Source: Clostridia bacterium
GTDB taxonomy: Bacteria; Bacillota; Peptococcia; DRI-13; SM3-B62
NCBI GenBank assembly: GCA_018432615.1
Contig: JAHDSQ010000014.1
Location: forward strand, 62,001-126,000
DNA length: 64,000 nucleotides
Direction of reading: 5' to 3'
The notes under the pieces are model-generated. The model was not told the origin of the DNA and did not search any database. It saw only the letters and a list, made by a program, of their open reading frames with translations. This document shows, in pieces, positions 9,782-21,407 of the stretch (the stretch's first letter is position 1; each line of letters starts with the position of its first letter). The position numbers and the translations under genes were made by a program.

Positions 9782-9857
9782 GGGGCTATAGCGCAGCTGG
9801 GAGCGCGCTTGACTGGCAGTCAAGAGGTCAGGGGTTCGATCCCCCTTAGCTCCACCA
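9782..9857 (+). tRNA. tRNA-Ala (anticodon GGC)
   Basis: A complete 76-base tRNA with encoded CCA. The acceptor stem GGGGCTA pairs with TAGCTCC (one G-U). The anticodon stem CTTGA/TCAAG encloses CTGGCAG, giving anticodon GGC at 9815-9817. The T arm AGGGG/CCCCT encloses TTCGATC. The 60 bases from 9798 to the CCA end are repeated at 10616-10675. Confidence 0.97.
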
Positions 9858-9977: not shown

Positions 9978-10256
9978 ATGGAAACAGTAATCAGACCATC
10001 AGCAGATTTGAGAAATCATTATAGTGAAATCTCTAAGCAGTGCAAAGAAACAAGGAATGCCGTTATTATTACCGTGAATGGACGAGGTGATACAGCAGTT
10101 CTTGGATTGCATGATTATTACCAAATGAAATCAGAACTGGAACTGCTCAGGACACTTGCAGAAGCGGAGAATGATGTAAAAAGTGAAAGAGTAGCACCAA
10201 TGCAGGGTTCGTTAGACGATCTTCGTGCATCTTTACTGGAAAGGAAGAATGGATGA
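9978..10256 (+). CDS. YefM/Phd-type antitoxin
   Basis: A 92-residue protein with the Phd/YefM fold: IRPSADLRNHYSEISKQCKE, then VIITVNGRGDTAVLGLHDYYQMK. These antitoxins bind operator DNA with the N-terminal part and neutralise the partner toxin with the C-terminal tail. GAGAGAGG precedes the ATG. The gene overlaps the toxin start by four bases (ATGA), a typical antitoxin-first arrangement. It lies between tRNA-Ala and the partial tRNA copy. Confidence 0.9.
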   Translation: METVIRPSADLRNHYSEISKQCKETRNAVIITVNGRGDTAVLGLHDYYQMKSELELLRTLAEAENDVKSERVAPMQGSLDDLRASLLERKNG

Positions 10257-10564
10257 AGTATCAAGTTTTAAGAACGGATAAGGCTGAGGAGCAGTTGCGT
10301 GACATCATATATTATATTGCAGATGAATCAGGTGATATTGATATTGCGCTGGGATATCTGGATAAGATTGAAACTTCAATCAATCGTCTGCAGGAGTTTC
10401 CGGAATCAGGAAGCATACCGAGATATTCGATATTAAAAAAGCAGGGATTTAGAGTAGTAATTGTTGAAAGACATCTTGTGTTTTATAAAATTAATGAGGC
10501 AGATAAAGCGGTTATTATATATGCTATCGTAGATGGCAGAAGGGAATACCGAAATTTAATTTAA
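10253..10564 (+). CDS. ParE/RelE-superfamily toxin
   Basis: A 103-residue toxin-like protein. The pattern is KYQVLRTDKAEEQLRDIIYYIA at the N-terminus, RLQEFPESGSIPR in the middle and FYKINEADKAVIIYAIVDGRREY at the C-terminus, which fits the ParE branch of the RelE/ParE superfamily. ParE toxins poison gyrase and RelE toxins cut mRNA; which applies cannot be decided here. It overlaps the antitoxin gene by four bases. Confidence 0.9.
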   Translation: MKYQVLRTDKAEEQLRDIIYYIADESGDIDIALGYLDKIETSINRLQEFPESGSIPRYSILKKQGFRVVIVERHLVFYKINEADKAVIIYAIVDGRREYRNLI

Positions 10565-20430: not shown

Positions 20431-20472
20431 AAACAGCCTTGGTTCAATGAAAGTTCGAACCAAGGCTGTTTT
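20431..20472 (-). terminator. strong terminator after the Phd-Uma2 gene
   Basis: AAACAGCCTTGGTTC (20431-20445) pairs with GAACCAAGGCTGTTT (20457-20471), a 15-base perfect stem with an 11-base loop. On the minus strand it lies 36 bases past the Phd-Uma2 stop, and a short T run follows the stem. Confidence 0.8.
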
Positions 20473-20508: not shown

Positions 20509-21258
20509 TTACCTATCCGGGAAGATGCTGTCAAGTTCAATCTGCAATTCTTCGAAATGAAAAGACTTAATCATATCTCCCTTTCTGAAGTTGGCGCTGT
20601 CACAAATGTCCTTATTTGAAAAAAGATGAACGGTGGCTTCTTTTGTCAGTGGGTTGATGATCCAGTATTCTCTGATACCGCAGGACATATAAAGGTCCAA
20701 TTTTTTGACCTGGTCTTTGCTGCGCGTGTTTTCTGAAAGGATTTCCACTACCAGGGCAGGAGTTCCCATGTAGTAGTCCTTTTCATTCAGCTTCTCTTTT
20801 AGGTCACAGATGACCATGATGTCAGGTTGGACTATGTTGATGTCCTTGGGATACCTGCTTAGAGTGATATCAAAAGGGGCAACATAGGGACGGCATTTCT
20901 TGCCTTTGAACCAGTTGTAGAAGAGACCGAACAGTTCGGTCAGGGTTGCTTGATGTTTAACTTTGGGCGATGAAAGCAGGTAGATTTCACCGTCGATGTA
21001 TTCGTACCTTTCCTCAGAATCGGCTGAAAGGCCAAGGAATTCCTCATAAGAGGCTTTCCGTCCGCCGTAGTTGCCTTTGGTCATTACCTCGCGAACCATA
21101 TCTGGCGATTGGGTGGAACCGGTACAAATACCGGCATCTTTTTTTGCCGATAGTACAGCAATCTCCATGCCGTTACGGGTGATGACGATATCTGCTTTAG
21201 CGGCCAGCTGCAGGTATTTGCCAAAGTTGTTTTGCACTTCTGTAGAGCTGACTTTCAT
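20509..21258 (-). CDS. Phd-type antitoxin domain fused to Uma2-family endonuclease
   Basis: A 249-residue fusion. Residues 1-45 (STEVQNNFGKYLQLAAK, IVITRNGMEIAVL) match the Phd/YefM antitoxin DNA-binding domain. Residues about 65-249 are a Uma2 (DUF820) PD-(D/E)xK-type nuclease domain: YEYIDGEIYLL, VQPDIMVICD, ALVVEILSENTRSKD and LYMSCGIREYWIINP. The catalytic acidic residues are present. Uma2 proteins are abundant in cyanobacteria and some Firmicutes and their role is not known. GGAGGTG precedes the ATG. A 43-base palindrome lies directly upstream and is the likely operator. Confidence 0.85.
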   Translation of the reverse strand: MKVSSTEVQNNFGKYLQLAAKADIVITRNGMEIAVLSAKKDAGICTGSTQSPDMVREVMTKGNYGGRKASYEEFLGLSADSEERYEYIDGEIYLLSSPKVKHQATLTELFGLFYNWFKGKKCRPYVAPFDITLSRYPKDINIVQPDIMVICDLKEKLNEKDYYMGTPALVVEILSENTRSKDQVKKLDLYMSCGIREYWIINPLTKEATVHLFSNKDICDSANFRKGDMIKSFHFEELQIELDSIFPDR

Positions 21259-21283
21259 TGGTACACCTCCGCTGAGAAAAATA

Positions 21284-21326
21284 GGGTATAGTTATATTAG
21301 CTAATTTAGCTAATATAACTATACCC
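21284..21326. repeat. 43-base near-perfect palindrome upstream of the Phd-Uma2 gene
   Basis: Two 21-base arms (21284-21304 and 21306-21326) are exact reverse complements around one central base. Each arm contains ATATTAGCTAA. On the minus strand it carries a possible promoter, TTAGCT then 17 bases then TATACC, so an operator for the fused Phd domain is likely. It also follows porB on the same strand with a short T run (TATTTTTC) after it, so it could double as terminator. Confidence 0.9.
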
Positions 21327-21407
21327 ATGCCGGAAAATCGTGTCAAGTCGTTCCGTTGCTCATATCTTGCTGTCTACCGTCGCAATCGTTCATCTTCTCA
21401 GTATCTG

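Follow-up and report, generated by a model that had tools for sequence, protein, structure and literature searches.

What does a single protein do that joins a DNA-binding domain of an antitoxin family to a predicted nuclease, and that is encoded behind an unusually long palindrome? The gene in question encodes 249 amino acids and lies at positions 20509-21258 on the minus strand of the window, by which we mean the whole 64,000-nucleotide stretch of Clostridia bacterium contig JAHDSQ010000014.1 that was analyzed. It was delimited by its open reading frame, Pfam and NCBIfam matches and an AlphaFold2 model. In the sequence, the ATG is preceded by a ribosome-binding site, GGAGG (21266-21270, minus strand), and the palindrome search placed a hairpin with 15-bp arms on the 3' side of the gene (20431-20471, minus strand), which is a possible end of the transcript.

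An earlier, sequence-only reading had proposed that a Phd and a Uma2 domain share this one chain, and the profiles and models agree with it. The match to TIGR01552 (phd_fam) scored 21.8 bits, above the cut-off of 20.8, and the match to PF05685 (Uma2) was unambiguous with 104.7 bits (cut-off 27), while PF02604 was matched with 27.0 bits (E 3.7e-6), slightly under its cut-off of 29.8. Both families were matched in all 32 aligned relatives. The model of residues 1-47 (pLDDT 89.7) had the beta-alpha-alpha-beta-beta fold of the Phd type, and its best solved structures were YefM (2a6q), Phd (4zlx), VapB46 (6jqy) and M. tuberculosis RelB1 (9g12), with TM values of 0.68-0.78 and a Foldseek probability of 1.00. 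The corresponding E values of 0.03-0.1 are modest, the domain being very short, yet the top 24 matches were all Phd/YefM-type antitoxin domains. In the full-length model, this Phd/YefM-type DNA-binding domain (residues 1-40; 21139-21258, minus strand), which carries Gln9-Asn10 in helix 1, is followed by a linker of predicted disorder (residues 41-64; 21067-21138, minus strand; pLDDT <50) and by the Uma2 PD-(D/E)XK domain (residues 66-249; 20512-21063, minus strand). The model of the latter was matched by Foldseek to four Uma2/DUF820-type structures (6okh, 9y1l, 3ot2 and 1wdj) with target-normalized TM values of 0.77-0.89. The detailed comparison covered 94 different full-length fusions, drawn from Bacillota, Spirochaetota and one MAG labelled Actinomycetota, and residues E86, D146 (of the PD motif), E172, D182 and K186 were invariant in all of them. 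Profile match, PD-(D/E)XK fold and conserved active-site residues thus all place the C-terminal domain in Uma2. The sequence-only reading would have fallen had the N terminus failed to score as Phd or the catalytic residues been lost on alignment; neither was the case.

The same reading had gone further and suggested that the protein acts as toxin and antitoxin at once, with the Phd part neutralizing the Uma2 toxin in the same chain until cleavage or a change of shape sets it free. Phd is by its profile matches a member of an antitoxin family, Uma2 has been put forward as a probable solo toxin (PMC2701414), and fused toxin-antitoxin proteins exist, CapRel being an example (cited in PMC10440598). 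However, the Phd part of the fusion spans only positions 3-39 of the 74 in PF02604, which is the DNA-binding part, and in comparison with the Phd proteins of two Phd-PIN relatives (loci L047 and L148) it lacks the C-terminal toxin-neutralizing segment. Such a tail is the neutralizing element in other antitoxins (PMC10440598), and its place is taken here by the variable, predicted disordered linker and by Uma2. Among the 94 fusion loci there was also no recurrent partner gene (in some, other fusions lie nearby), and at 83 no same-strand open reading frame of 80 aa or more follows within 60 bp, so that the separate adjacent toxin and antitoxin genes of a type II system are not what these loci contain. 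Because the neutralizing tail is missing and no partner gene is conserved, the combination of toxin and antitoxin in one chain is unsupported, and we consider it improbable. A Phd domain that lacks this tail is therefore better seen as a borrowed operator-binding domain than as an antitoxin.

The window also holds what looks like an ordinary two-gene toxin-antitoxin pair (9978-10564, plus strand). There, another gene of the Phd type (92 aa; PF02604, 39.8 bits) is overlapped by a 103-aa open reading frame that by eye has the look of a RelE/ParE-type toxin. Just before this pair, at about 9785-9857 (plus strand), a putative element resembles the 3' half of a tRNA ending in CCA.

We then considered the palindrome, which proved to be exactly as first described: 43 bp at 21284-21326, with perfect arms of 21 nt (21284-21304 and 21306-21326) and a one-nucleotide centre. 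Such palindromes are expected by chance about 7e-8 times per 64 kb of random sequence, and there is no second copy in the organism's own genome. Its length, noted in the sequence-only reading as unusual for a simple operator, can be explained as four hexameric sites at a 9-bp period. Read on the gene's strand, the flanks GGGTA and TACCC enclose TAGTTA, TAGCTA, TAGCTA and TAACTA, separated by TAT, AAT and ATA; two hexamers are perfect and two degenerate. The two TAGCTA cores lie at 21307-21312 (promoter-proximal) and 21298-21303 (gene-proximal), and the outer hexamers, read from the sequence on the minus strand, at 21316-21321 (TAGTTA) and 21289-21294 (TAACTA). The assignment of the whole as an operator array rests on the palindrome search and on the enrichment of the cores in relatives described below. 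The promoter, a consensus match, consists of a -35 box TTGACA (21341-21346, minus strand) and, after a 17-bp spacer, a -10 box TATAGT (21318-21323, minus strand). The latter overlaps the TAGTTA hexamer and sits within the promoter-side arm, as the claimed overlap of palindrome and promoter requires. Because of this position, transcription is expected to begin within the palindrome, so that the main transcript could not form the full hairpin, and the leader RNA from this region folded no better than shuffled sequences. Orthologues with 91% and 76% identity retain arms of 21-23 nt in which changes are symmetrical on both sides; selection for two-fold binding could explain this, as could replication errors that correct palindromes.

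A palindrome in this position could instead serve mainly to terminate transcription of the por operon upstream, its place on the promoter being of secondary importance. Directly after it comes a T-rich run, TATTTTTCTC (21274-21283, minus strand), which scores as terminator-like for read-through from that operon; the predicted fold of the read-through RNA is strong (z = -6.2), and both the T-run and the co-directional upstream por operon are present in the window and in a sister genome. On the other hand, the 76% orthologue (L067) has a palindrome with 22-nt arms but no T-run and a divergent upstream gene, TAGCTA cores recur at loci that have no hairpin, and across the family long core palindromes showed no significant link with upstream genes that run in the same direction (p = 0.43). 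Given the T-less palindrome of L067 and the lack of such an association, a terminator role is at most secondary, and as the main function it is unlikely. A terminator-like hairpin in read-through RNA would in addition insulate the nuclease gene.

In the 110 bp upstream of the fusions at 92 loci, TAGCTA occurred 166 times where 1.6 copies were expected, an enrichment of about 100-fold. It was present at 72 of the 92 loci, usually in 2-3 copies spaced by 9 bp, 17-23 bp or 30-32 bp (about two or three helical turns). Core palindromes with arms >20 nt were found in only 3 of about 90 fusions examined, long palindromes at L073, L077 and L104 having been discounted as runs of N. Other fusions therefore share the operator in its core form, as the sequence-only reading had asked, but rarely the long arms. 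Palindromic cores over the own promoter are a feature of Phd/YefM-type regulators, and by sequence they are present here.

The type of core followed the Phd subtype, as defined by residues 9-10 in the first helix of the modeled domain. In the first set, TAGCTA preceded 69 of 72 Gln9-Asn10 proteins and none of the six Lys9-Thr10 proteins, all six of which had CGTACG-like cores instead. In a held-out set of 93 further fusions outside the first 94, TAGCTA was found with 51 of 53 Gln9-Asn10 fusions (p = 7e-19 against the rest) and CGTACG-like cores with 15 of 15 Lys9-Thr10 fusions. Since the Lys9-Thr10 proteins form a separate, well-supported clade in the tree, residue and clade are inseparable as the source of the association in this class. 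A strict two-residue code (Gln9-Asn10 for TAGCTA, Lys9-Asn10 for CAGCTA, Lys9-Thr10 for CGTACG) fitted the first 94 proteins and was given up when Lys9-Asn10 failed in the held-out set; this pair occurs with TAGCTA, CAGCTA and, in that second clade, CGTACG. Residues 9-10 thus predict the core incompletely, and the associations that hold are those of Gln9-Asn10 and Lys9-Thr10 alone. Operator and Phd domain could co-occur through shared descent alone, although the sampled Gln9-Asn10 proteins have identities down to about 45% and span Bacillota and Spirochaetota. Two further observations concern the other classes. Lys9-Gln10 fusions (L252, L260, L272, L276, L294 and others) have no TAGCTA and mostly no CGTACG, and several have degenerate GTAC-centred sites, such as GGTACC in L294, so that they perhaps form a third operator class. 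At two Lys9-Thr10 loci (L006 and L056), a palindrome of 32-38 bp surrounds a single CGTACG core, and the T-run that comes after it lies shortly before the promoter; hairpin and T-run resemble those of the window.

Genome-wide, the pattern TTAGCTA-N(1-33)-TAGCTAA occurs at three places in the own genome, before its three Gln9-Asn10 fusions, and at three in the sister genome, likewise always before Gln9-Asn10 fusions, and its reversed control had no match in either. A larger regulon was rejected, as two further, looser matches look like chance (C30, within a coding frame, and C31, within a frame of the opposite strand). This distribution bears on the possibility that the fusion is solely a transcription regulator, whose Uma2 fold is catalytically dead or works as a sensor. 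The domain does read E-I-L in place of a classical ExK motif with its Lys, and we found no demonstrated Uma2 activity in the literature searched, which lay mostly outside subscription journals. Against this, all 94 proteins retain the acidic residues and a Lys downstream of these, and since the paired cores of the genome occur only before the fusions themselves, such a regulator would have no regulon to serve; we give this explanation little credence. Finally, the Phd domain might guide Uma2 to cut at TAGCTA arrays, whether those of the gene's operator or others in invading DNA. This would fit the flexible linker between a DNA-binding domain and a predicted nuclease and the possible extrusion of a cruciform by the palindrome, but we consider such targeting very unlikely, because cutting at sites in the gene's own promoter would be self-damaging, TAGCTA in flanking DNA shows no depletion that would signal cleavage (observed/expected 1.53) and few family members have long palindromes. 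The last two points also make it unlikely that the palindrome generally serves as a nuclease substrate, as had been proposed.

The reading that we favour, with a probability of roughly 0.7, is that the fusion is a one-protein, self-repressing predicted nuclease that is autorepressed via its TAGCTA array. The N-terminal Phd/YefM-type domain, very probably dimeric, would bind the palindromic hexamers and, on neighbouring sites, block polymerase at the -10 box and the start site. As the four hexamers cover the -10 box and the predicted start site, the protein would shut its own promoter and thereby keep the predicted Uma2 nuclease scarce. Loss or dilution of the protein, or release of the operator, would then allow the gene to be expressed. 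The parts of this proposal differ in strength. The sequences compared are strong evidence for the domain make-up, for an operator array that lies on the promoter and for the joint occurrence of this array and the Phd subtype in many species. From these we infer DNA binding, dimerization and repression by the fusion; a nucleic-acid-cutting activity of Uma2 and a defence- or stress-like role are weaker suppositions. More tentatively still, and with considerable doubt on our side, Phd-Uma2 fusions might be widespread one-gene, self-timed defence nucleases that arrived at their TAGCTA/9-bp/-10 grammar independently of the E. coli repressor RptR. Two unrelated repressors of nuclease loci would then have converged on one kind of regulatory DNA, possibly because it is acted on by a common trigger such as infection.

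The arrangement itself recurs widely. Uma2 occurs six times in the own genome and never without a DNA-binding domain on the same chain, which is of the Phd type in five proteins and HTH_17 in the sixth. When 398 genomes were sampled evenly across the phylum, 65 had a match at E <=1e-40; in nine of these it covered Uma2 alone, so that 56 genomes contain the fusion. Searches of phage records, plasmid records and viral contigs returned Uma2-type domains only and no fusion, and the idea of carriage by mobile elements was dropped. The copies also decay, since broken or shortened ones exist: L143 (Bacillus sp. SD088) is split, L065 is without its Phd part, and L054, L235 and L280 have in-frame stops (TAA, TGA and TAG, respectively). 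The HTH_17-Uma2 fusion of the own genome (L008, contig C66) is followed by an open reading frame that by eye is AbrB-like. In the literature searched, again mostly outside subscription journals, we found no description of a Phd-Uma2 fusion or its operator, and the arrangement seems to be undescribed as a system. Uma2 proteins are abundant in bacteria, and a family that couples the predicted nuclease directly to a DNA-binding domain from toxin-antitoxin systems, behind an operator that can be read, offers a handle on the timing and trigger of Uma2. The natural operator classes (TAGCTA and CGTACG) are likewise useful for studying DNA choice by Phd domains.

How does this system compare with known ones? 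With the Uma2 family (DUF820, COG4636; PDB 6okh, 9y1l, 3ot2 and 1wdj), long called predicted endonucleases or likely solo toxins (PMC2701414) and with Uma2-like candidates listed by PADLOC as PDC-S03, the fusion shares a complete domain, the conserved residues and a solo gene, but it carries a DNA-binding domain, as do all six Uma2 proteins of this genome and unlike most that are known. Stand-alone Phd proteins paired with PIN-domain toxins (L047, 1489-2113; L148, 3001-3623) closely resemble the Phd part of the fusions and have the same T-E-V-Q-N-N-F-G helix, that of L148 being 61% identical over the domain; they differ in having two genes, a neutralizing tail and a PIN ribonuclease as the toxin. 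The Gln-Asn Phd of L047 has two TAGCTA cores upstream, the same pairing as in the fusions, and there was none upstream of the L148 pair in the DNA examined. YefM-YoeB and Axe-Txe have the same DNA-binding fold, and their antitoxins repress via paired palindromic hexamer cores that overlap their own promoter (PMC7730913); in these systems, the core is TGTACA, the spacing 12 bp, the toxin a separate gene, and the antitoxin has a C-terminal neutralizing tail.

The most striking comparison is with the operator of RptR. This E. coli autorepressor of a nuclease and defence locus acts through direct TAGCTA repeats that recur every 9 bp across the -10 box of a restriction island, needs two or more sites, and controls Type I restriction genes and DarTG2 (PMC12255303). 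Unlike the fusion, for which the model gives a Phd-type fold, RptR is a separate 79-aa, all-helical protein of four helices, with no Phd fold and not fused to a nuclease. As far as the published description of RptR goes, the use of one hexamer, at one spacing and one position, by two unrelated folds is apparently a case of convergence, and the operator match allows a direct test of convergent control at nuclease loci.
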